Assembly (NCBI RefSeq): GCF_031877795.1
Contig: NW_027436638.1
Location: 558,001 to 622,000, forward strand
DNA from: Strix aluco
Taxonomy: Eukaryota; Chordata; Aves; Strigiformes; Strigidae
Reading direction: 5' to 3'
Length of the DNA: 64,000 nt
The number at the start of each line of letters is the position of its first letter. Position 1 is the stretch's first letter. Position numbers and translations under genes: made by a program. Under the pieces are notes generated by a model. It worked only from the letters and a program-made list of their open reading frames with translations, ran no database searches and had not been told where the DNA came from. This document shows, piece after piece, positions 29,753-43,177 of this stretch.

Positions 29753-32700
29753 CCGAAGTCATCGTCTGTCTGGGGGGGGGGGGGGCGAGGTCGTCGCCTG
29801 TCTTGCGGGGGGGGGGGGGGGGCGATGTGGTTGCCTCTCTTGGGGGGGGGGCGATGTCGTCGCCTGTGTTGGGGGGGGGGGTGTGCCGATGTTGTTTGTC
29901 TTTTGCGGGGGGGGGGAGAGGTCATCGCCTGTCTTGGGGGGGGTGGGCGAGGTCGTCACCTGTCTTGGGGGGGGGTGTCCGAGGTCGTCACCTGTCTTGG
30001 GGGGGGGGGGGACGAGGTCGTCGCTTGTCTTGGGGGTGGGGGGGGGGCGAGGTTGTCGTGTATCCTGGAGTGTGGGGGGGGCTGAAATCGTCGCCTGTCT
30101 TGGGGGGGTGGGGGCGAATTCGTCGCCTGTCTTGGGGGGGGGGCGGCGCGAGGTCGTCGCCTGTCTTGGGGTGGGGGGGCGATGTCATCGTCTGTCTAAG
30201 GGGGGGGCGGGGGGCGCCGATGTCGTCGTCTGTCTTGGGGGGGGCGAGCTCGTCGCCTGTCCTTGGGGGGAGGGGGGCTGAAATCGTCGCCTATCCTGCG
30301 GGGGGGGGCTGAAATCGTCGCCTGTCTTGGGGTGGGGGGGGCGAAGTCGTTGCCTGTCTTGGGGGGGGGGGCGATGTCATCGTCTGTCTTGTGGGGGATG
30401 GCGCCGATGTCTTTTATCTTTGGGGGGGGCGGGGGCGATGTCGTTGCATGTCTTGAGGGGGGGGGCGAGGTCGTCGCCTGTCTTGGGGGGGGGGTCCGAG
30501 GTCGTCGCCTGTCTTGAGGGGGGGGGCGAGGTCATCGTCTGTCTTGGGGGGGGGGGTCGAGGTCGTCGGCTGTCTTGGGGGGGGGGGCGAGGTCGTCGTG
30601 TATCCTGGCGTGGGGGGGGTGGCTGAAATCGTCACCTGTCTTGGGGGGGGTGGGGGGGGCGAAGTCGTCGCCTGTCTTGGGGGGGGGGGGGGCGAGGTCG
30701 TCGTCTGTCTTGGGGGGGGCGAGGTCATCGTCTGTCTTGGGGGGGGGCGAGCTCCTCGCCTGTCTTGGGGGGGGGGGGCGATATCGTCACCTGTCTTGGG
30801 GGGGGTGGGGGGGCGAGGTCGTCGCCTGTCTTGGGGCGGGGGCACGAGGTCGTCGCCTGTCTTCGGGGGGGCGCCGATGTCGTCGTCTGTCTGGGGTGGG
30901 GGGGGGGGCGATGTCGTTGCCTGTCTTGGAGGGGGGGAGGGCAATGTCGCCTGTCTTGGGGGGCGGGCGAGGTCATCGCCTTTCGGGGGTGGGCGGGGGG
31001 AGCGTGACGTCGTCGCCTGTCTTGGGGGGGGGCGTCGAGGTCGTCGTCTGTCGTGGGGGGGGGGGGGGCCGAAATCGTCGCCTGTCTTGGGGGGGGCGGG
31101 GCGATGTCGTCGCCTGTGTTGGGGGGGGGGGCAATGTCGTCGTCTGTCTTGTGGGGGGGGCAAGTTCGTCGCTTGTCTTTGGGGGGGGGCGAGGTCGTCG
31201 CCTGTCTTGGGGGGAGGGGTGGGGTGCGAGATCGTCGCTTGTCTTGGGGAGGGGGGGTGATGTCGTCGTCTGTCTGGGGGGGGGGGGGCGATGTCGTTGC
31301 ATGTCTTGGGACGGGAGGGGCGAGGTCGTCTTCTGTCTTGGGGGGGGGGTCGAGGTCGTCGCCTGTCTTGGGGGGCAGGGGCGAGGTCATCGTCTATCCT
31401 TGGGGGGGGGTGGCTGAAATCGTCGCCTATCCTGGGGGGGGGGGGCTGAAATTGTCGCCTGTCTTGGGGTGGGGGGGGTGAAGTCGTCGCCTGTGGTGGG
31501 GGGGGGGGCGAGGTCGTCGTCTATCCTGGGGGGGGGGCGGGGGCTGAAGTCGTCGCCTGTCTTGGGGGGGGGTGGGGGGGGCGAAGTCCTCGCCTGTGTT
31601 GGAGGGGGGGGGCGACGTCGCCTGTCTTGGAGGGGGGGTGGTGCCGAGGTCGTCGCTTGTCTTGGGTGGGGGGGGGCGAGGTTGTCGTCTATCCTGGGGG
31701 GGGGGGTGGGGGGTTGAAATCGTCGCCTGTCTTGGGGTGGGGTGGGCAAAGTCGTCGCCTGTCTTGGGTGGGGGGGGGGTCGATGTCGTCGTCTGTCTGG
31801 GGTTGGGGGGGGGGGCGATGTCGTTGCCTGTCTTGGGGGGGGGGGCGGCAAGGTCGCCTGTCTTCGGCGGGGGGGGAGGGCGATGTCGCCTGTCTTGGGG
31901 GGGGGCGCCGATGTCGTCGTCTGTCTTGGTGTGGGGGGGGTGAAGTTGTCGCCTGTCTTGGGGGGGGGGGGCGATATCGTCACCTGTCTTGGGGGGGGTG
32001 GGGGGGCGAGGTCGTCGCCTGTCTTGGGGCGGGGGCGCGAGGTCGTCGCCTGTCTGGGGTTGGGGGGGGGGCGATGTCGTTGCCTGTCTTGGGGAGGGGG
32101 GGCAAGGTCGCCTGTCTTCGGCGGGGGGGGAGGGCGATGTCGCCTGTCTTGGGGGGCGGGCGATGTCGTATTCTGTCTTTGGGGAGGGGCAAGGTCGTCG
32201 CCTGTCTTGGGGGGGGGCGAGGTCATCGCCTTTCGGGAGTGGGCGGGGGGAGCGCGACGTCTTCGCCTGTCTTGGGGGGGGGCGTCGAGGTCGTCGTCTG
32301 TCGTGGGGGGGCGGATCGAAGTCATCGCCTGTCTTGGGGGGAGGGGGATGTCGTCGCCTGTCTTGGGGGGCGGGGGCGAGGTCGTCGTCTATCCTGGGGG
32401 GGGGGTGGGGGCTGAAGTCGTCGCCTGTCTTGGGTGGGGTGGGGGGGCGAAGTCCTCGCCTGTCTTGGAGGGGGGGGGGCGACGTCGCCTGTCTTGGAGG
32501 GGGGGTGGTGCCGAGGTCGTCGCTTGTCTTGGGTGGGGGGGGGCGAGGTCGTCGTCTATCCTGGGAGGGGGGTGGGGGGTTGAAATCGTCGCCTGTCTTG
32601 GGGGGGGGTGGGGGCCGAATTCCTCGCCTGTCTTGGGGGGGGTGGGTGCCGATGTCGCCTGTCTTGGAGGGTGGGGGGCGATGTCGTCGCCTGTCTTGGG

Positions 32701-34010
32701 GGAGGGGGGGGCAAGGTCGCCTGTCGTGGGGGGGGTGGGCGGCGAGATCGTCGCCTGTCTTGGGTGGGGGGTGGGGTCCGAGGTCGTCGCCTGTCTTGGG
32801 GAGGGGGGTGGGGGGCGAGATCGTCGCTTGTCTTGGGGAGGGGTGGTCGAGGTCGTCGCCTGTCTTGGGGGGGGCGATGTCGTCGTCTGTCTTGGGGGGG
32901 GGGGCGAGGTCATCGTCTGTCTTGGGGGGGGTCGAGGTCTTCGTCTGTCTTGGGGGGGGCGCCGATGTCGTTTGTCTTTTGGGGGGGCGGGGGGCGATGT
33001 CGTCACCTGTCTTGGGGGGGGGAAGGCAATGTCGTCGCTTGTCTTTGGGGGGGGGCAAAGTCGCCTCTCTTCCGGGGGGGTCAAGGTCGCCTGTCTTCGG
33101 GGGGGGGTGGGCGAGGTCGTCGCATTTCTTGGGGGGGAGGGGGCGCTGTCCTCTGTCTTGGGGGGGGGGTCGATGTCGCCTCTCTTGGGGCGGGGGCGAG
33201 GTCGTTGCTTGTCTTGGGGGGGGGAAGGCGATGTCGTCGTCTGTCTTGGGGGGGGGGTCGAGGTCGTCGTCTGTCGTGGGGGGGGGGGGGTCGAGGTCGT
33301 CGCCTGTCTTGGGGGGCAGGGGCGAGGTCATCGTCTATCCTTGGGGGGGGGGGGCTGAAATCGTCGCCTATCCTGGGGGGAGGGGCTGAAATTGTCGCCT
33401 GTCTTGGGGTGGGGGGGGTGAAGTCGTCGCCTGTGGTGGGGGGGGGGGCGAGGTCGTCGTCTATCCTGGGGGGGGGGCGGGGGCTGAAGTCGTCGCCTGT
33501 CTTGGGGGGGGTGGGGGGGCGAAGTCCTCGCCTGTCTTAGAGGGGGGGGGCGACGTCGCCTGTCTTGAAGGGGGGGTGGTGCCGAGGTCGTTGCTTGTCT
33601 TGGGTGGGGGGGGGCGAGGTTGTTGTCTATCCTGGGGGGGGGGGTGGGGGGTTGAAATCGTCGCCTGTCTTGGGGTGGGGGGGGCGAAGTCGTCGCCTGT
33701 CTTGGGGGGGGGGGGTGTCGAGGTCGTCGCCTGTCTTGGGGGGGGGCGAGCTCCTCGCCTGTCTTGGAGGGGGGTCGATGTCGTCGCCTGTCTTGGGGAG
33801 GGGGGGCAAGGTCGCCTGTCTTCGGCGGGGGGGGAGGGCGATATCGCCTGTCTTGGGGGGCGGGCGATGTTGTATTCTGTCTTTGGGGAGGGGCAAGGTC
33901 GTCGCCTGTCTTGGGGGGGGGCATCGAGGTCGTCGTCTGTCGTGGGGGGGCGGATCGAAGTCATCGCCTGTCTTGGGGTGGGGGGGGATGTCGTCGCCTG
34001 TCTTGGGGGG
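29753..34010 (+). repeat. G-rich minisatellite, units of about 30 bp, about 4.26 kb
   Basis: The array consists of some 130-140 imperfect units of the form (G)7-12 + CGAGGTCGTCGCCTGTCTTG. Variants are GATGTCGTCGTCTGTC, CTGAAATCGTCGCC and CCTATCCTGG. Because G runs vary in length, the unit size varies from about 27 to 38 bp. Stops are almost absent in most frames, which makes open frames of up to 634 codons on both strands with glycine-rich or proline-rich nonsense proteins. I call no genes here. Long blocks recur: sequence at 31340-31760 reappears at 33280-33690, offset about 1940 bp, and a block starting GAAGTCCTCGCCTG occurs near 31582, 32450 and 33520. Every unit has a long G run, so the strand has strong G-quadruplex potential. 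Exact length is likely unreliable in any assembly. Confidence 0.95.
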
Positions 34011-34688
34011 TGTGATAGATTGGGTGGGTTTGTTCACTAAAATGTCAGCAGGATAAAGTGCTTGTTTGCTTGGCAGGATATGCTGGGGGCCTCTTGGTGG
34101 GTGAGACCCAGATACCGTTAGGCCTGCTTAATCAGCCCCCACAGGTCTGGTCTCCACCCAGATGTCGTTTGGCTTGCTTAATCAGCCCCCACAGGTCTGG
34201 TCTCCACCCAGATGTCGTTTGGCTTGCTTAATCAGCCCCCACAGGTCTGGTCTCCACCCAGATGTCGTTTGGCTTGCTTAATCAGCCCCCACAGGTCTGG
34301 TCTCCACCCAGATGCCGTTAGGCCTGCTTAATCAGCCCCCACAGGTCTGGTCTCCACCCAGACGCCGTTAGGCTTGCTTAATCAGCCCCCACAGGTCAAG
34401 TCTCCACCCAGATATTGAGAGGATCGAATAAGGAAGATTGAGAACCTCCATCCCTGCGACCCCCTAGTAGCAAAACGAACATGCGCAGAGCATATCGAAA
34501 GAAACTACGTCAACCGAGAAGACTGTATATAAAAAGGGACTGTAAAAAGGGAAGAGGGCCGCCGTTGATGGAGTGGAGACTCCCCGGCTGCCCAGCGCTG
34601 ATTTTTGCTCACTAACTTTGCTTGCTGAAATTATAATAAATTCTGATTGGGTTGGAAACTTTTGGTCTCGGTTTCTCAACATATAACA
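34011..34688 (+). repeat. 5' LTR with six 50-bp tandem units
   Basis: 678 bp, TGTGATAG at the start and ATATAACA at the end (imperfect terminal inverted repeat). U3 carries six tandem 50-bp units starting GAT.CCGTT or GATGTCGTTT at 34111, 34161, 34211, 34261, 34311 and 34361, each with GCTTAATCAGCCCCCACAGG. A degenerate seventh start is at 34411. Units two to four share a GTCGTTTGGCTTG variant absent from the 3' LTR. A TATATAAAA box lies at 34526-34534 and AATAAA at 34635-34640, so R begins around 34550-34560. The repeats are in the position of retroviral enhancers. Confidence 0.95.
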
Positions 34689-34691
34689 ATT

Positions 34692-34709
34692 TGGTGCCGT
34701 GACTCGGAT
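34692..34709 (+). promoter_or_regulatory. primer binding site, tRNA-His
   Basis: TGGTGCCGTGACTCGGAT begins three bases after the LTR end and is an exact 18-base complement of the 3' end of vertebrate tRNA-His including CCA. Reverse transcription would start here. The match has no mutation. Confidence 0.93.
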
Positions 34710-35070
34710 GGAAATATAGTGGCTGGACTTGGGCAGCAGGGAAGGCGCCCCACCATCCTTTGGTGGTCCTAGCTGTTCCCAAAGTCTCCACACTTTCCAC
34801 TGACGAACCCAAAATCTAAAGTAGTGAGCAAAAGGAACCGGTCGACCCTGTAATCTTTGTGCACAAAAAGTCCGGACGAAGACACAGGACGTGTAAGTAT
34901 ATTTGGAAATCCGTTCGGTTGGGGTTGGTGATCCTGAAGCGTTGCATGTGAGTGGTTCCAGTGGAACCAAGCGAGTGCGGACCCTCAGTAGTGCGGTTCC
35001 CATAGCCCGCGAGGGCGTGGGCCACGAACCAGGGGAACGTGTGTGAGTGAGAAAGAGTGCGCTTCGGAAG
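34710..35070 (+). other. 5' leader of the provirus with candidate splice donor
   Basis: About 360 bases of untranslated leader between PBS and gag. A strong donor-like GTGTAAGTAT places GTAAGT at 34893-34898, suitable for making subgenomic env and possibly accessory mRNA. The packaging signal would lie in this interval, but no structure was computed. Confidence 0.6.
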
Positions 35071-36564
35071 ATGGGACAGGGGAAAAGCAAGCCCCCTGGT
35101 CCCATGGGTGGAGGGCCCCCTGTGCGGTTGCCCCCTATCCCGCCTGATAGTCCCTTAGGATTAATGTTGAAAAATTGGAGGGATTTTTCAAAAAGCAAAG
35201 GAAAGAATAAAGCAAAAATGATCCATTTCTGTATGGAAATTTGGGGAGGTCAGAATATTAAGGAAGAACATGTCTGCTGGCCAATCTTTGGGTCTTTTGA
35301 AAATTGGGTATGTGAGGCCCTAAACACATATGTCAATTCTAAGGAACCGGTTAATCCGGAGGAGAGTGATTATGCTAACATGTGGATGGGATCAGGAGCC
35401 AAAAGCTATCTGTTTGCCCTAAAAGAAAAGGGGGGTGGGAAAAACGATAAGAAAAAACGAGACAAAGAAGAGGTTCCCTTATTACCCCCACCTTATATAC
35501 CACCCCCACCACCTATTGCCAATCCACCACCCTCAGCCCCTGAGGAAACTGAGAGCGACTCTGGAACTTCCTCAGACACCCCCAGAAGTTCCAGAAGGGC
35601 AACTAGAAGTCAGGCAAAACAACAAAAATTATATCCACTCCGGGAGACACCAATGGGGGGACCACAACCAGGGATAGGATTTGTATCTATACCCCTTAAC
35701 TCAGGGGATGTTAGGGAATTCAAAAAAGAAATGGGAAACTTGATAGAAGATCCTTTGGGGGTTGCTGAAAGGATTGATCAATTCCTAGGTCCTAACACCT
35801 ATACCTGGGATGAAATGCAGTCTATTTTGAGTATACTATTTACTGCAGAAGAAAGAAATATGATCAGAAGGGCCGGAATGAGAATATGGGATGCCCAGCA
35901 TGTACAAGGTCCTTTTGCAGATGAAAAATGGCCCATACAGCGACCAAATTGGGACCACCAAAACCCAAACCACAGAACTCATATGCAGGACCTAAGGACT
36001 ATTATTATTCAAGGCATCCGAGAATCTGTGCCCAGGGGGCAAAATATAAACAAAGCCTTTAATGAGAGGCAGAAAAAAGAGGAAAGCCCCACCGATTGGT
36101 TAGAGAGGCTGAGAAAAAGCCTCCAGATGTATTCAGGATTGGATCCGGACACCCAAGTGGGACAGGCATTGCTGAAAACTCAATTTGTAGCCAAATCTTG
36201 GGATGACATAAGAAAAAAATTAGAAAAGATGGACAACTGGCAGGACCGGGGGTTAGATGAGTTATTGCGAGAGGCTCAGAAAGTGTACGTCCGGAGGGAT
36301 GACGAAAATCATAAGAAGCAAGTCAGGATGATGGTGGCAGCTGTCCGGGAGGGACAAAAAGGCCCAAGGAATCAGACACCTCCTCGTACACTAGGAAAAT
36401 ATGGGGATTTCCTAAAAGAAAACCCCAGATTCAGGACAGAAAAAACTGAAGGAATGATAAGACGAAGAGAACAGGGCACCTGTTTCTATTGTGGTGCCCG
36501 AGGACACATAAAAAGGGAATGCAGGAAGCGGCTGCGGGACGAAAGAATGTTCAAGGAAGATTAG
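35071..36564 (+). CDS. gag: Gag polyprotein, ends at UAG
   Basis: Structural precursor of matrix, capsid and nucleocapsid. I start at the ATG at 35071 because it gives MGQGKSK, an N-myristoylation signal, in a good context; the frame is open slightly upstream but without an ATG. The product is 497 residues. A late-domain region holds PPPY (139-142) and PSAP (154-157), which recruit NEDD4-type ligases and TSG101. A capsid region follows, with a major-homology-like segment at about 334-350 (Q, E, W, R in order). There is one zinc knuckle, C471-C474-H479-C484 (CX2CX4HX4C), in a basic tail. A single knuckle and the P-rich linker are typical of gammaretroviruses. The stop is TAG in the same frame as pol. 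No frameshift or nonsense is seen. Confidence 0.95.
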   Translation: MGQGKSKPPGPMGGGPPVRLPPIPPDSPLGLMLKNWRDFSKSKGKNKAKMIHFCMEIWGGQNIKEEHVCWPIFGSFENWVCEALNTYVNSKEPVNPEESDYANMWMGSGAKSYLFALKEKGGGKNDKKKRDKEEVPLLPPPYIPPPPPIANPPPSAPEETESDSGTSSDTPRSSRRATRSQAKQQKLYPLRETPMGGPQPGIGFVSIPLNSGDVREFKKEMGNLIEDPLGVAERIDQFLGPNTYTWDEMQSILSILFTAEERNMIRRAGMRIWDAQHVQGPFADEKWPIQRPNWDHQNPNHRTHMQDLRTIIIQGIRESVPRGQNINKAFNERQKKEESPTDWLERLRKSLQMYSGLDPDTQVGQALLKTQFVAKSWDDIRKKLEKMDNWQDRGLDELLREAQKVYVRRDDENHKKQVRMMVAAVREGQKGPRNQTPPRTLGKYGDFLKENPRFRTEKTEGMIRRREQGTCFYCGARGHIKRECRKRLRDERMFKED

Positions 36565-36641
36565 GGGTGTCAGGGGCTCTATTTGCTGGGGACCCAAAAA
36601 CATAAGGAGCCCTTGATAAAAGTTAAGGTAGGTCCCCAGCA
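36562..36641 (+). promoter_or_regulatory. stop-codon readthrough site with predicted pseudoknot
   Basis: The gag UAG (36562-36564) is followed by six spacer bases and then complementary segments. CAGGGGCTC (36571-36579) can pair with GAGCCCTTG (36607-36615) with one G-U pair. Inside that loop, TGCTGGGGACC (36584-36594) is an exact 11-base complement of GGTCCCCAGCA (36631-36641). Together they make an H-type pseudoknot just downstream of an amber codon, the arrangement gammaretroviruses use for about 5-10% readthrough into pol. Pairing was found by eye; no energy calculation was made. The second stem has a longer A-rich connector than classical examples. Confidence 0.75.
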
Positions 36642-39600
36642 ACAGGAATTCGAGTTCCTGGTAGATTCAGGGGCTGAAAGATCCACTATCCAGATAATGC
36701 CCCAGGGCTGTAAAGTATCGTCAGAAACGGCCCAAGTTATAGGAGCCAAGGGAGAACCCTTTGAAGTACCCATTATCAAAAATATAGTATTTGAAACACA
36801 TTCCAAATTTGGGATGGGATCATTATTATTAGTCCCTGAGGCTGATTACAATTTATTGGGTAGAGATCTAATAATAGAATTAGGAATTAATTTGGAAGTA
36901 AAAAATAAAGAACTAAAGATTAGGTTATGCCCCCTTCGAGTGGAAGATGAAAAGGAAGTTAACCCAGAGGTATGGTATACCCCAGAAACGATTGGTAAGC
37001 TACAGATACCTCCATTTTCAGTAACCATTATTAATCCGGAGGTACCTATACGAATCAAACAATATCCAATTCCACCAGAAGGAAAGTGGGGGTTAAAGCC
37101 TGAGATTGAAAGGTTACTTGAAAAAGGCCTTTTAGAACCATGTATGTCCCCCTTTAACACTCCCATCCTACCCGTAAAGAAATCAGATGGGTCTTATAGA
37201 TTAGTGCATGATTTAAGGGAAATTAACAAAAGAACCGTAACTCGATTCCCCATAGTGGCTAATCCTTATACCTTGCTTAGTAGGATAGGGCCAGAAAATC
37301 ACTGGTATAGTGTAATTGATTTAAAAGATGCCTTCTGGGCTTGCCCCCTGAGTGAGGAAAGCCGAAATTATTTTGCCTTTGAATGGGAAGATCCTGAAAC
37401 CCACCGTCGACAGCAATTAAGGTGGACGGTCTTACCTCAAGGATTTACCGAGTCACCTAATTTATTCGGGCAAGCATTGGAGAAAATTCTCCAAGAATAT
37501 GTGGTAAATGAAAATACCATCTTGATCCAGTATGTGGATGATCTTTTAATTGCAGGAAAGGAGGAAGCAATAGTAAGGCAAGAAAGCATTAAATTATTAA
37601 ACTTCCTGGCTCTAAAGGGACTGAAGGTATCACGATCCAAGCTACAATTTGTGGAAGAAGAAGTTAAATATCTGGGGCATTATTTATCAAAAGGAGAAAA
37701 GAGAATAGATCCCGAACGAATAAAAGGGATATTGTCAATACCCCCTCCTACAAATAAAAAGCAGATAAGACAATTATTGGGTCTGGTCGGGTATTGCAGA
37801 CAATGGATTGAAAATTATAGCAGCAAAGTAAAATTTTTGTATAATAAATTGAGCCAGGATAACCTGCTAAAATGGACTGTGGAAGATGAACAACATTTGG
37901 AACAACTGCGAAAAGATCTTATAACTGCCCCAGTACTAAGCTTACCTGACCTAAAAAGACCCTTTTCCCTCTTTGTTAATACTGATGAGGGAACTGCCTA
38001 TGGAGTCCTTACCCAGGACTGGGCAGGGAAAAAGAAACCAGTAGGATATCTGTCTAAGTTACTAGACCCGGTTAGCAAGGGTTGGCCCACCTGCCTACAA
38101 GCAGTAGTAGCAGCTGCACTCCTGGTAGAAGAAGCAAATAAAATAACTTTTAATGGAGAATTAAGGGTTTTATCGCCTCATAACATTCGGGGCATCTTGC
38201 AACAAAAGGCAGAAAAATGGGTCACAGATTCCAGGCTTTTAAAATATGAAGGAATATTGATTGATTCCCCAAAACTATCCCTGGAAGTCACAACCCTCCA
38301 GAATCCAGCCCAGTTCCTGTACGGAGAACCCTGGGACTCACAGTTGATACATGATTGTTTCATAACCATAGAAAGTCAAACTAAAATTAGACCAGATTTG
38401 GAAGAGGAAGAACTAGGAGAAGGAGAAAAATTATTTGTGGATGGCTCGTCACGAGTAGTGAATGGGAAAAGAAAATCAGGATATGCAATTATTAAAGGAC
38501 CAAATCTCAAAGTATTGGAATCAGGACCATTAAATCATTCCTGGTCAGCCCAGGCGTGTGAATTATATGCAGTGCTAAGAGCTTTGGAATATCTAAGAAA
38601 TAAAGTAGGAACTATATTTACCGACTCTAAGTATGCATATGGAGTAGTGCATACCTTTGGGAAAATATGGGAAGAAAGAGGATTAATAAATTCACAGGGA
38701 AAGGACATAATCCATCAGGAATTAATAGTGCAGATATTAAAAGCTCTACGGGGTCCAAAAGGAATTGCAGTGGTACATCTAAAGGGACATCAAAAAGGAG
38801 TGGATATCCGAAATAGGGGAAACAATGTAGCTGACCGAGAAGCAAAAAGAGCAGCCCTAAAAGACTGGACCCCAGTTGATACTCTTAGCCACGATACCTC
38901 AGAGGTAAAGAAATACAGATTGTATAGCTTCACCCTGCAGGAGAAAGCTAAATTAAAGGAGATGGGCGTAAAAGAAAACCAGGGGGGACATTGGAATCTC
39001 CCCGATGGGAGAACTATTCTACCAAAAACACTTGCATTAGAAACTTTGCAAAGGTTTCACGATCAGACTCATTGGGGAGTACAAGCATTAGTAGACCAAT
39101 TTGCTACTAAATATATGAGCATTGGAATATATAATTTGGCAAAACGAGTAGTAGAAGACTGCCTAATTTGCAAAAGGGTCAATAAAACCCAAGTTAGAGA
39201 AAGACCACTGGGTGGCAGACAGCTTGCCCACAGACCATTTGCTAACATTCAGATAGATTTTACTGAGCTACCAAAAGTGGGAAGATATAAATATTTGCTA
39301 GTGATAGTAGACCATCTAACTCATTTTGTAGAGGCTTTCCCCACTGTTAGAGCAACTGCTCACACAGTAGTAAAAATACTGTTGGAAAACATAATACCAA
39401 GATATGGAATGAGTGAAGTTATTGACTCAGATCGAGGTCCCCACTTTGTGTCTAAAATAATACAGGAGGTTTTGGTAGCAATGGGAACAAAATGGGAACA
39501 TCATACACCATGGCATCCCCAAAGTTCGGGGAAAGTAGAGAGGATGAATGCAGAAATTAAGAAACAGCTCACCAAACTAATGATGGAAACCCGGTTATCC

Positions 39601-40065
39601 TGGGTGAAGTGTTTACCACTCGCACTACTTAATTTGAGAACTAGACCAAGGGCTGATCTTGGGATTTCACCTTTTGAGATGCTATACGGAATGCCTTATG
39701 ATTTAGAGGAACCCCAAGACCATCCTAGAGTAAGAGACCAGAAATTAAACTCCTATATTATAAACTTAATGAAATATCGAAATGAATTATGGAAAAAGGG
39801 AATGGTGGTGCAAAGACCTCCTCTGGACTTGGCTATTCATAAAATCCAGCCAGGAGACTGGGTATTAATTAAATCATGGAAGGAATCATCATTAACCCCT
39901 CAATGGGACGGACCTTACCTTGTATTGCTTACCACAGAGACTGCTGTCCGAACTGCTGAACGAGGTTGGACCCATGCCCGCTTAATAAAAGGACCTATCA
40001 CTAACTCTTCGTGGAAAATCACCAGCCCGGTTGGAGACTTGAAATTAAAATTCCAGAGGACTTAA
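36565..40065 (+). CDS. pol: Pro-Pol (protease, reverse transcriptase, RNase H, integrase)
   Basis: 1166 codons from the base after the gag UAG to TAA, in the gag frame and expressed by readthrough; there is no own ATG at the start. Protease: LVDSGAE (Asp at residue 34), DSG rather than the commoner DTG. Reverse transcriptase: a VIDLKDAF block and the YVDD catalytic box at 37531-37542 (residue 323). RNase H: VDGSS with Asp near 626, then TDSKYA and GNNVADREAK. Integrase: HX3H (from 39058) and CX2C zinc domain, catalytic D898, D956 and E992 with 35 residues between the last two, and a C-terminal domain with WDGPYLVLL, the GPY/F module of gamma- and epsilonretroviruses. No stop or frameshift and all catalytic residues are present, so it may encode active enzymes. 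The TAA overlaps the ATG of the next frame (TAATG). Confidence 0.95.
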   Translation, partial: GCQGLYLLGTQKHKEPLIKVKVGPQQQEFEFLVDSGAERSTIQIMPQGCKVSSETAQVIGAKGEPFEVPIIKNIVFETHSKFGMGSLLLVPEADYNLLGRDLIIELGINLEVKNKELKIRLCPLRVEDEKEVNPEVWYTPETIGKLQIPPFSVTIINPEVPIRIKQYPIPPEGKWGLKPEIERLLEKGLLEPCMSPFNTPILPVKKSDGSYRLVHDLREINKRTVTRFPIVANPYTLLSRIGPENHWYSVIDLKDAFWACPLSEESRNYFAFEWEDPETHRRQQLRWTVLPQGFTESPNLFGQALEKILQEYVVNENTILIQYVDDLLIAGKEEAIVRQESIKLLNFLALKGLKVSRSKLQFVEEEVKYLGHYLSKGEKRIDPERIKGILSIPPPTNKKQIRQLLGLVGYCRQWIENYSSKVKFLYNKLSQDNLLKWTVEDEQHLEQLRKDLITAPVLSLPDLKRPFSLFVNTDEGTAYGVLTQDWAGKKKPVGYLSKLLDPVSKGWPTCLQAVVAAALLVEEANKITFNGELRVLSPHNIRGILQQKAEKWVTDSRLLKYEGILIDSPKLSLEVTTLQNPAQFLYGEPWDSQLIHDCFITIESQTKIRPDLEEEELGEGEKLFVDGSSRVVNGKRKSGYAIIKGPNLKVLESGPLNHSWSAQACELYAVLRALEYLRNKVGTIFTDSKYAYGVVHTFGKIWEERGLINSQGKDIIHQELIVQILKALRGPKGIAVVHLKGHQKGVDIRNRGNNVADREAKRAALKDWTPVDTLSHDTSEVKKYRLYSFTLQEKAKLKEMGVKENQGGHWNLPDGRTILPKTLALETLQRFHDQTHWGVQALVDQFATKYMSIGIYNLAKRVVEDCLICKRVNKTQVRERPLGGRQLAHRPFANIQIDFTELPKVGRYKYLLVIVDHLTHFVEAFPTVRATAHTVVKILLENIIPRYGMSEVIDSDRGPHFVSKIIQEVLVAMGTKWEHHTPWHPQSSGKVERMNAEIKKQLTKLMMETRLSWVKCLPLALLNLRTRPRADLGISPFEMLYGMPYDLEEPQDHPRVRDQKLNSYIINLMKYRNELWKKGMVVQRPPLDLAIHKIQPGDWVLIKSWKESSLTPQWDGPYLVLLTTETAVRTAERGWTHARLIKGPITNSSWKITSPVGDLKLKFQRT

Positions 40066-40712
40066 TGGACTTGGACCCTTACAGGATTGAGTATTTACCT
40101 AACCCTTATTACTTAGATGATGGACTTATAAGTAATGATGATGTTAGAATAAGGTGTGGAAATAAGTACTGTAATTGTCATCCCTTTGTATGTTATACCT
40201 GTAAGGTATGCAAGGAAAGGTGGTGGACTCATTGTGTTAAAGGATACCCTCCCCGAGGGGTTTGCATTTCCTGTTATAAATCGCAAAGGGAAATCACTAA
40301 TTGGACATTAACCTGCAAAATATCTAAAGGAGAATTAACCTCAGGCTCAAAAGAATGGTGGGATATATTTACAAAAGGAATTGAACCAAATTTTTATTGT
40401 TATCACCCGAATGAACCAAAGCCTTTTGTAGCGGAAATCACTGAGAGCCTCTGTCGTAAGCTCATCAGTAAAGTCCGTTGTGACGTTCCTGAAATTAAAC
40501 ATACAAATTGGAGACCCTATTTTACGAGACAGGATCTTAGACAGCGAGTGTTTCCTCCTGAAGAGCATCCTTGCTGCCGAGAAGATGGTACACCTCGTGG
40601 CTCGAAGCACCCGAGTCGACGAGCGAGGCAGAGGGAAAGACGACTGTGGAGGAAGGAGCCGTCCAACTGGAGCGTTGCTGAGATGCTGGCAGAATTACCA
40701 CGGAATTGGTAA
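40065..40712 (+). CDS. accessory ORF between pol and env: Cys-rich, Arg-rich, function unknown
   Basis: 215 codons in a frame different from both pol and env. Its ATG (40065) overlaps the pol TAA as TAATG; the frame is open about 18 codons upstream but without ATG. Residues 31-70 hold nine cysteines, C31-x4-C-x-C-x4-C-x2-C-x2-C-x7-C-x9-C-x2-C, with His next to the third, a likely zinc-binding fold. The middle (about 75-155) is rich in Trp and aromatics. Residues 178-197 form an arginine-rich stretch including RRARQRERRLWRK, resembling RNA-binding/nuclear-import motifs of complex-retrovirus regulators. The last 15 residues (SVAEMLAEL) have export-signal-like spacing. The first about 415 bases are covered by neither pol nor the env frame, so an open frame here is unlikely to be chance. 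The last 230 overlap the env leader. Expression could be by reinitiation after pol or from a spliced mRNA. I know of no equivalent in simple gammaretroviruses; function is inference only. Confidence 0.75.
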   Translation: MDLDPYRIEYLPNPYYLDDGLISNDDVRIRCGNKYCNCHPFVCYTCKVCKERWWTHCVKGYPPRGVCISCYKSQREITNWTLTCKISKGELTSGSKEWWDIFTKGIEPNFYCYHPNEPKPFVAEITESLCRKLISKVRCDVPEIKHTNWRPYFTRQDLRQRVFPPEEHPCCREDGTPRGSKHPSRRARQRERRLWRKEPSNWSVAEMLAELPRNW

Positions 40713-42627
40713 AGAAAAATGGGTGAATAACATACTTTTAACCCTGTCTGCATTTCACAGGAATCAACACAGAGGGAATCTGGTATACAGGGGAACATCA
40801 TCTCAAACCTTGCATATCATAATTGTAATATTGTTATGGTTAAAATTAAGTTATTGTACTGCAGAACTGGAAACACATCAACCTTTTAAATGGTCCCTAA
40901 CCAGATTAGATGGTAAAATCTTACGTACATCAACTGTACCAGGGGCTCCAAGCTTCATTGTGGGATTGTGTGATCTAACGGGAATAGACCACTGTGGTAA
41001 AATTTTGAATTTAACAGGATTTTACATGTGTCCTAGTTCCAACCGAGGGAAACCATATTGTAATTACCCTGGCCATTATTTTTGTGCCTATTGGGGCTGT
41101 GAAACTATCGCTTCTGATTGGGCTCCAGGAGGAGGACCAGATCAGTATCTTAAAGTAGGATTTGGTCCAGCTGGGTGTACACCACCTTGGAAAGGTCCCT
41201 CAGGAGAGATGCTCTCTAAAGGAACATGTTCATATATATATATTAATATAAAAAACCCAGAAGACCCAGGGTGGATCCTGGGAAGAACCTGGGGAATTAG
41301 ACATTGGGAACCTGGAGCAGATCGGGGAAATCTTATAACAATTAAGAAAGAAATTGCACCTAATGAAACCCCAGAACCCATTGGACCAAATCTGGCAATT
41401 TCTACTATTAATGTTAAAAACAATACCACTAATTACCAGAGAAAGTATACCCAACCCACTAATTTGACCTCTGAAATCAATATATATGGATATAGTACTC
41501 TATGGAAAATTATGCAAGCTAGTTATGGGATACTAAACAAAACCAAACCTGAGTTAACGAAAGACTGTTGGTTATGTTATAATATTAGACCACCTTTTTA
41601 TGAGGCTGTAGGAATGACTGCTAAAGCTAAAAGAGTAAATGGAACTAACCCTGCACGGTGCATATGGAAAAAAGGAAAGGACCAGACACAGGGACTCACT
41701 TTGTCCCAAGTAACAGGTAAAGGGAGATGCATTGGAAAGGTCCCCACCCATAAAATGCATCTCTGTGGAGCAAAAATATCAAAAAACGAGAGACCTGCAC
41801 AGTGGCTGATTCCCGCCGCTAATACGAAATGGATATGTTCAAACATTGGGATCACCCCGTGTATATCTCTTGTTGCATTTAACGAAAGCAGTGAATACTG
41901 CATTCAGGTATCAATAATACCACGTATTACTTACCATCCTAGCGAATATATTTATGATCAGCATATAACCCCTGAACATCATTTAGTAAAACGAGAACCA
42001 ATCACTGTCCTTACCATCGCTACTCTTCTCACCATCAGTGGTATAGGCGCAGGAACAGGAATCGCCTCCTTAGTAAACAATCAAAAAGAAATGAAGGCAC
42101 TCCGAGTAACAGTAGACGAAGATCTCGGTAAAATCGAGCTAGCGATTGATGGATTGGTAAAGTCATTAAGATCCTTATCTGAGGTAGTAATGCAAAATAG
42201 AAGGGGATTAGATCTCTTATTACTACAACAAGGAGGATTATGTGTAGCACTCAAGGAAGAATGTTGTACTTATGCAGACCATACAGGGGTAACAATTGAT
42301 ACAATGACTGAGTTACGAAAGAGGTTAGAACAACGAAAACGGGAAAGAGAGGCTCAACAGAGCTGGTATGAATCCTGGTTCAATTATTCCCCTTGGCTAA
42401 CAACTTTGCTTTCGACTATAGCTGGCCCTCTGCTGTTGCTTATTTTGGGATTAACTTTTGGACCATGCATTTTTAACAAACTAATTACAATTGTAAAAAG
42501 TCGCTTGGAAGCTGCACACTTAATGCTTGTTAGAGCTAAATACGAACCACTCCGAGGAGATATGGAAATGGAAGAAAGCTTGAATTTGAGTCAACAAGAA
42601 TTAAAAAGGTTTAGTGAACAAAATTAA
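40585..42627 (+). CDS. env: Env glycoprotein precursor (SU-TM)
   Basis: 680 codons from the first ATG of the frame (40585, good context), although a spliced leader could provide another start. The first about 75 residues, overlapping the accessory ORF, are basic; a hydrophobic signal core follows (about 76-93, ending in SYCTA), then mature SU. SU has many cysteines, several N-glycosylation sequons and a CWLC motif (CXXC, residues 328-331), as in covalently linked gamma-type SU-TM. A furin-like LVKR site ends at 470 (41994). TM has a hydrophobic alanine/glycine/isoleucine N-terminus acting as fusion peptide, coiled-coil heptads, the conserved QNRRGLDLL block, CX6CC (from 553), a membrane anchor (about 604-630) and a tail containing YEPL, a YXXL sorting motif. 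The gene is uninterrupted and about the usual gammaretroviral length. The assignment is secure; receptor and activity are unknown. Confidence 0.93.
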   Translation: MVHLVARSTRVDERGRGKDDCGGRSRPTGALLRCWQNYHGIGKEKWVNNILLTLSAFHRNQHRGNLVYRGTSSQTLHIIIVILLWLKLSYCTAELETHQPFKWSLTRLDGKILRTSTVPGAPSFIVGLCDLTGIDHCGKILNLTGFYMCPSSNRGKPYCNYPGHYFCAYWGCETIASDWAPGGGPDQYLKVGFGPAGCTPPWKGPSGEMLSKGTCSYIYINIKNPEDPGWILGRTWGIRHWEPGADRGNLITIKKEIAPNETPEPIGPNLAISTINVKNNTTNYQRKYTQPTNLTSEINIYGYSTLWKIMQASYGILNKTKPELTKDCWLCYNIRPPFYEAVGMTAKAKRVNGTNPARCIWKKGKDQTQGLTLSQVTGKGRCIGKVPTHKMHLCGAKISKNERPAQWLIPAANTKWICSNIGITPCISLVAFNESSEYCIQVSIIPRITYHPSEYIYDQHITPEHHLVKREPITVLTIATLLTISGIGAGTGIASLVNNQKEMKALRVTVDEDLGKIELAIDGLVKSLRSLSEVVMQNRRGLDLLLLQQGGLCVALKEECCTYADHTGVTIDTMTELRKRLEQRKREREAQQSWYESWFNYSPWLTTLLSTIAGPLLLLILGLTFGPCIFNKLITIVKSRLEAAHLMLVRAKYEPLRGDMEMEESLNLSQQELKRFSEQN

Positions 42628-42632
42628 GAAAT

Positions 42633-42644
42633 AGAAAAGGGGGG
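42633..42644 (+). promoter_or_regulatory. polypurine tract
   Basis: AGAAAAGGGGGG lies six bases after the env stop and is followed by AT and then the 3' LTR (TGTGATAG at 42647). It is the expected primer for plus-strand synthesis. The two bases between it and TG fit the dinucleotide removed at integration. Confidence 0.9.
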
Positions 42645-42646
42645 AT

Positions 42647-43177
42647 TGTGATAGATTGGGTGGGTTTGTTCACTAAAATGTCAGCAGGATAAAGTGCTTG
42701 TTTGCTTGGCAGGATATGCTGGGGGCCTCTTGGTGGGTGAGACCCAGATACCGTTAGGCCTGCTTAATCAGCCCCCACAGGTCTGGTCTCCACCCAGATG
42801 CCGTTAGGCCTGCTTAATCAGCCCCCACAGGTCTGGTCTCCACCCAGATGCCGTTAGGCTTGCTTAATCAGCCCCCACAGGTCAAGTCTCCACCCAGATA
42901 TTGAGAGGATCGAATAAGGAAGATTGAGAACCTCCATCCCTGCGACCCCCTAGTAGCAAAACGAACATGCGCAGAGCATATCGAAAGAAACTACGTCAAC
43001 CGGGAAGAAGACTGTATATAAAAAGGGACTGTAAAAAGGGAAGAGGGCCGCCGTTGATGGAGTGGAGACTCCCCGGCTGCCCAGCGCTGATTTTTGCTCA
43101 CTAACTTTGCTTGCTGAAATTATAATAAATTCTGATTGGGTTGGAAACTTTTGGTCTCGGTTTCTCAACATATAACA
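42647..43177 (+). repeat. 3' LTR with three 50-bp tandem units
   Basis: 531 bp, with the same ends as the 5' LTR. Only three 50-bp units (starts at 42747, 42797 and 42847) are present, against six in the 5' LTR. It also has a 3-base insertion (GGGAAGAAGAC against GAGAAGAC) near 43003. These two changes explain the 147-bp length difference exactly. TATATAAAA lies near 43015-43023 and AATAAA near 43124-43129. Outside the repeats the two LTRs are almost identical. Confidence 0.95.

Follow-up and report, generated by a model that had tools for sequence, protein, structure and literature searches.

Gammaretroviruses are the textbook simple retroviruses, and the lentiviral genes for Tat, Vif and Vpr lie between pol and env, with products rich in cysteine and histidine and, in Tat, a basic stretch. 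Class I retroviruses are described as being without accessory genes (PMC4798954) or as having few, if any (PMC9967133). Here we have analyzed 64,000 nucleotides (nt) of Strix aluco DNA (assembly GCF_031877795.1, contig NW_027436638.1, positions 558,001 to 622,000; hereafter the window, numbered from its first letter), in which a provirus spanning 34011-43177 carries an additional frame at 40065-40712, between pol and env. The expectation that a class I provirus has no accessory gene at this place does not hold here: the frame at 40065-40712 codes for a protein and is an accessory gene found in a group of endogenous retroviruses (ERVs) of gammaretrovirus type in birds.

This gene is like those for Tat, Vif and Vpr in its place, in the Cys/His richness of its product and, as in Tat, in a basic stretch, but it shows no detectable sequence relation to PDB chains and has a larger Cys/His set. 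Murine leukemia virus (MLV) and ERV-Fc, as simple gammaretroviruses or class I ERVs, share with the window provirus the gag-UAG-pol frame, one zinc knuckle, a reverse transcriptase (RT) of MLV type and a TLV_coat env; they are described as having no or few accessory genes, whereas here an extra gene separates pol and env. The 3'ORF of snakehead retrovirus, called Tat-like on its Cys/basic features (PMC12193657), resembles our gene in having a Cys cluster followed by a basic region and a similar length (205 codons); its start, however, overlaps the end of env, thus placing it after env, and a frameshift in the 3'ORF had little effect, with little importance for transcription. Extra frames near the end of pol are also found in jaagsiekte sheep retrovirus (JSRV orf-x) and in Xenopus XtERV-S (Orf-x2), but the latter lies inside pol in another frame and at about the place of orf-x (PMC8278194), whereas the accessory gene has its own space after pol. 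We found no published description of the accessory gene in searches of an open-access library, an account elsewhere being possible. We conclude that what is new here is the accessory gene of a new, unnamed family in a retrovirus lineage held to be simple.

Some features of the frame had been pointed out in a first-pass annotation of the window; those that matter for the argument are as follows:

40065..40712, forward strand: accessory gene of 215 codons between pol and env
40155..40274, forward strand: nine-cysteine cluster C31-C70 plus H56, comprising two candidate zinc sites judged by conservation and an AlphaFold2 model
40398..40481, forward strand: C112, H114, C130 and C139, a third candidate zinc site not noticed in the first pass
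40572..40588, forward strand: 17-nt stretch TGCTGCCGAGAAGATGG, coding for CCREDG in the window and containing the env ATG
40617..40655, forward strand: arginine-rich stretch RRARQRERRLWRK, residues 185-197, with R188 and Q189 present in 25 of 25 aligned rows

The frame lies where the first-pass annotation had put it, with its ATG at 40065 overlapping the pol stop as TAATG, its stop ending at 40712 and a product of 215 residues; the nine cysteines (C31, 36, 38, 43, 46, 49, 57, 67 and 70) and the arginine-rich stretch are likewise present. The overlap with the start of env also stands, but the bases that code in the accessory frame alone number ~519 and not ~415 as had been claimed, because, while the open stretch of the env frame starts at 40480 in the list of frames, the env ATG is at 40585-40587. 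A tail with export-signal-like spacing had been proposed as well, but we saw by eye no regular spacing in the window protein, and the W...ELPxxW tail is absent in two of the related families (C and D, below). That the frame is beyond chance is evidenced by: 1) 6 and 25 stops in the remaining two forward frames across 40065-40712; 2) homologues 35-98% identical to the window protein; and 3) a synonymous excess in 8/8 pairs of sequences. The provirus, of gammaretrovirus type, does have an extra gene, one that selection has kept and that further ERV families of the same genome also carry.

Searching a protein set of 5.8 billion sequences yielded 27 homologues, none of which shows a described family over the matched part. 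Only six bear names, all of them from birds: P0012 (Accipiter gentilis), P0021 (Bubo scandiacus), P0023, P0024 and P0027 (Hirundo rustica) and P0025 (Melopsittacus undulatus), of which P0012, P0021, P0023 and P0024 are without named function, P0027 has an integrase domain and P0025 is a CENP-Q isoform. Another homologue, P0002, is a 98% identical gene on an ENA contig of 8854 bases, about one provirus in size. A separate search of the window's own genome gave at least 151 matches to the accessory gene, with 150 of 658 candidates scored. We have fetched 60 gene pieces, 8 (one being the window's own) and 40 by accessory-gene matches and 12 by a search with integrase, and grouped them ourselves into families A, B/E, F, C, D and G, family A comprising the window copy and 23 others that are 93-100% identical. 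The end of pol lies upstream of the gene in 47 of the 48 pieces fetched by accessory-gene matches (the exception, L048, has no pol in the piece but does have the env start) and in 12/12 of those fetched by integrase. Relative to the pol stop, the start overlaps in family A, with the ATG ~20-45 nt downstream in D and ~150 nt downstream in E/F. Among the matches listed, 37 rows have no stop in the matched part; 20 of these belong to family A, which has 24 rows, and 17 lie outside it. The other listed matches carry stops, often identical ones between copies, and since many closed copies share their breaks, they descend from few broken parents.

Selection was measured in codons 1-173, upstream of the env ATG, on pairs picked as family representatives. 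The proportion of synonymous differences (pS) exceeded that of nonsynonymous differences (pN) in all eight pairs, with a nonsynonymous-to-synonymous ratio (w) of 0.08-0.51 and a bootstrap fraction with pS<=pN of 0 to 0.04. By pair, w was 0.51 (A-E), 0.30 (A-F), 0.32 (E-F), 0.21 (A-D), 0.23 (D-D) and 0.37 (A-Aold), as well as 0.10 (A-C) and 0.08 (C-D), with synonymous divergence (dS) saturated in the last two. As controls, the same eight pairs gave w of 0.03-0.13 for the pol end, and the four having env gave 0.10-0.31 for env, so that constraint on the accessory gene is weaker than on pol and closer to that on env. Third codon positions vary most in between-family comparisons. Within family A, with 101.7 and 379.7 sites counted, 9 synonymous changes, 12 others and 1 stop were found in at least 2 of the 23 other copies, and the singletons were 6 synonymous, 12 other and 3 stops. 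A frame closed in most copies together with a dN/dS near 1 had been named beforehand as speaking against the gene: in the window's genome most copies are indeed closed, but between families the ratio is not near 1, and the accessory frame is under purifying selection between several families.

The integrase search (150 of 3568 candidates scored) brought up a related amplified group, many of the matches listed having an open pol frame of 1202 codons. Ten of the 12 pieces fetched from it belong to one family (G), all with the 1202-codon pol frame; the other two are L057 of family C and the divergent L055, in which the accessory gene is also broken. In family G, 2-4 stops plus frame breaks interrupt the accessory gene in 10/10 fetched copies; in the pol end and the stretch of env that the pieces cover, the number of stops is 0 in 10/10 copies. 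For the G pair L049-L054, w was 0.97 in the accessory gene (3.3 synonymous and 12.7 other changes), compared to 0.09 in pol and 0.35 in env; G-D pairs gave 0.36-0.41, a history that includes a period with an open gene. Open copies of the gene therefore show a clear signal of selection, whereas in dead ones, on a small number of changes, the signal is faint or absent. As family G amplified with its gene broken, amplification does not require the gene, barring help in trans from other copies; the gene is thus selected but dispensable.

According to the model and the conserved residues, the predicted protein consists of one compact domain, in which we see as many as three candidate zinc sites, and of the conserved arginine-rich stretch. 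In the AlphaFold2 model of the window protein, the predicted local distance difference test (pLDDT) is 84-96 per block across residues 11-160, with a low-scoring tail, and the model of a family D protein has its main elements in the same order. For the third candidate site, conservation by rows is 24/25 for C112, 22/25 for H114, 26/26 for C130 and 25/26 for C139. The first-pass annotation had asked for a profile search for relatives and a look at zinc binding in a model: no relative was significant, the best Pfam E-value over 26 family members being 0.026 and a profile of the family finding no match among PDB sequences, and candidate zinc sites are seen in the model.

How the gene is expressed bears on its function. 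Nine ATGs, all out of frame, lie between the accessory ATG and the env ATG, which makes scanning from one to the other unlikely. The accessory ATG is flanked by T at -3 and by G at +4, and the env ATG, with A at -3 and G at +4, is in good context; acceptor-like sites, by consensus match only, are found at 39937 and near 40563-40584. Given that scanning is unlikely and that the start does not always adjoin the pol stop, separate spliced mRNAs would serve the accessory gene and env. Two other mechanisms were considered and rejected: termination-reinitiation at TAATG as a shared mechanism, in view of the variable distance from the pol stop (overlap in A, but ~20-45 nt in D and ~150 nt in E/F), and one bicistronic mRNA read by leaky scanning, in view of the nine intervening ATGs in other frames. 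Around the env start, 22 of 24 loci, drawn from several families, share TGCTGCCGAGAAGATGG without any change, synonymous positions included (L016 and L026 differ); the stretch is perhaps a start or splice signal nested within the accessory gene. Downstream of the env ATG, similarity is greater in the accessory frame than in that of env for 9/10 family pairs, C-D being the exception; the five representatives were picked by the TGCTGCCGAGAAGATGG string and their pairs are not independent.

Certain bird gene models touch on this region. In the Hirundo rustica models P0023, P0024 and P0027, different pieces of gag, protease/RT and integrase are joined to the accessory gene at the same residue (AEI), a common junction that could stem from an acceptor modelled within the gene and is no proof of splicing. 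The records P0027 and P0028 give accessory-env fusions, the accessory frame entering the env frame directly after EDGTP at a C run. P0025 (367 residues) is a model that bears the name centromere protein Q isoform X2; its residues 23-96 match accessory residues 139-214 at 50%, which suggests that an alternative 5' exon of this kinetochore gene derives from a provirus.

With respect to function, we tentatively favor, at a little short of an even chance, an RNA-binding accessory protein that acts in trans to raise the expression or transport of viral RNA, helpful to the virus but dispensable. Made from its own spliced mRNA, the protein would have its first ~165 residues folded as a compact, partner-binding domain that two or three zinc ions hold together, and the arginine-rich stretch would take it into the nucleus and onto RNA, where it would raise the expression or transport of viral RNA in trans. 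The conservation of the Cys/His ligands together with R188 and Q189 across the aligned rows supports this reading. Its close rival, which we regard as possible, is a protein that antagonises a restriction or immune factor of birds, or acts as an adaptor against it, in the manner of Vif, Vpr or Vpx; its zinc-held domain would then dock on host proteins, with the basic stretch for localisation only. The position between pol and env, the size and the predicted Cys/His-rich domain would suit such a role, as would a constraint below that of pol and nearer to env, and dispensability in the germ-line-amplified family G is expected if the target is absent there; but no sequence relation to PDB chains was found, and a best-kept feature beyond the Cys/His set is the arginine-rich stretch, a better fit to nucleic acid. 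The first-pass annotation had suggested a regulator, of which the gene, the Cys cluster and the Arg stretch stand, with the regulatory role itself possible but unproven, as Cys-rich plus Arg-rich is weak evidence. In its stronger form, an essential Tat- or Rev-like regulator, we consider it unlikely. The order of a Cys cluster and then a later arginine-rich stretch, and the presence of the gene in several families, would agree with it, but family G spread without the gene in 10/10 fetched copies with pol and env parts open (unless helped in trans), the snakehead case shows that a Cys cluster with a basic region can mislead, and, by eye, no export-signal spacing is apparent in the tail, which families C and D do not have.

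Two further explanations concern the origin of the frame. Capture of a host gene, e.g. a zinc-finger gene, by an ancestor of these viruses was also raised in the first pass and has a precedent in some crocodilian ERVs that took up host genes (PMC4299795); we hold it very improbable here, given that neither Pfam (best E-value 0.026 over 26 members) nor the profile against PDB sequences gave a significant match, which speaks against a known zinc-finger protein and leaves room for an unrecognised ancestor, and that 47 of the 48 own-genome pieces have the pol end upstream. That the frame codes for no protein and arises as a side effect of either an RNA element (a signal for splicing or start) or the leader of env draws on the identity of the 17 nt around the env ATG in 22/24 loci; this is the least probable explanation and largely refuted, since the selection signal resides in codons 1-173, before the env ATG, third positions change most between families, and in family G, with its dead frame, little or nothing of the signal is left.

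A number of observations weigh against the RNA-binding accessory protein and temper our preference for it. The arginine stretch and the tail have low model confidence, with the stretch predicted helical, and the constancy of CCREDG may be due in part to the env start at the DNA level. A layout of Cys-rich plus Arg-rich parts has misled before, in snakehead retrovirus (PMC12193657). Between-family dS is often saturated, so that single w values are rough; in all pairs of nine sequences, the within-family pair C-C2 has w of 2.6 on 1 synonymous and 10 other changes, and w in the env-overlap part reaches 1.4-1.5. The dead-gene control rests on few changes, w for L049-L056 being 0.52 from 1 and 2 changes. 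Families B, E and F carry shared breaks in the gene, and family C has no in-frame ATG before the Cys cluster; with the loss in G, these are a poor fit to an important regulator of viral RNA.

The remainder of the provirus is laid out as follows:

34011..34688, forward strand: 5' long terminal repeat (LTR), 678 nt, in which a 50-nt unit is repeated more often than in the 3' LTR
34692..34709, forward strand: primer binding site TGGTGCCGTGACTCGGAT, which we take to be of tRNA-His type
34893..34898, forward strand: candidate splice donor GTAAGT, a consensus match only, with a second 5' splice-site-like sequence at 34948
35071..36564, forward strand: gag, with Gag_p30 and one CCHC knuckle, ending in UAG, pol following in the same frame
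36565..40065, forward strand: pro-pol open frame, with protease, RT, RNase H and integrase
40585..42627, forward strand: env, TLV_coat, with a leader of ~90 residues (putative cleavage) and a start that overlaps the accessory gene
42647..43177, forward strand: 3' LTR, 531 nt, with a polypurine tract just upstream

By its gag-UAG-pol frame, MLV-type RT, TLV_coat and Gag_p30, the provirus is a gammaretrovirus-type (class I) ERV. A UAG at 36562-36564 separates gag and pol within a single reading frame, and Pfam matches comprise TLV_coat (E 5.6e-112) and Gag_p30 (E 6.9e-31), in addition to the one CCHC knuckle and the integrase end of MLV. The RT is closest to the type of MLV and xenotropic MLV-related virus (XMRV), with RT/RNase H p80 and the Moloney MLV (MMLV) RT set as best PDB chains at 516 to 215 bits (the virus names of these chains are in part presumed by us) and the first chain outside the MLV/XMRV RT set at 158 bits. 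A gapped alignment of the two LTRs shows a difference at 1 of 528 aligned sites, so that the insertion is young; their difference in length (678 vs. 531 nt) consists of extra 50-nt units in the 5' LTR, the remainder being almost identical. Just before the provirus, 31387-33964 is a long G/C-rich repetitive stretch with overlapping Pro/Arg-rich and Gly-rich frames on both strands. Between L023 and L025, dS is 0.20 in pol, 0.32 in the accessory gene and 1.77 in env; env was probably exchanged between families in their history, with the accessory gene travelling with pol.

We regard it as about evenly poised that a bird clade of gammaretrovirus type evolved its own accessory protein family, with a fold unrecognised in other viruses and a layout of zinc domain plus arginine-rich stretch, independently of lentiviruses and deltaretroviruses; bird class I retroviruses counted as simple would then be, or recently have been, complex, with a trans-acting protein. 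Bird genome annotation also gains an unnamed protein family, fragments of which are already present in gene models. A gene under selection across divergent families and in several kinds of birds, and cleanly lost in one family, would offer a natural before-and-after comparison of what an accessory gene does for a retrovirus.
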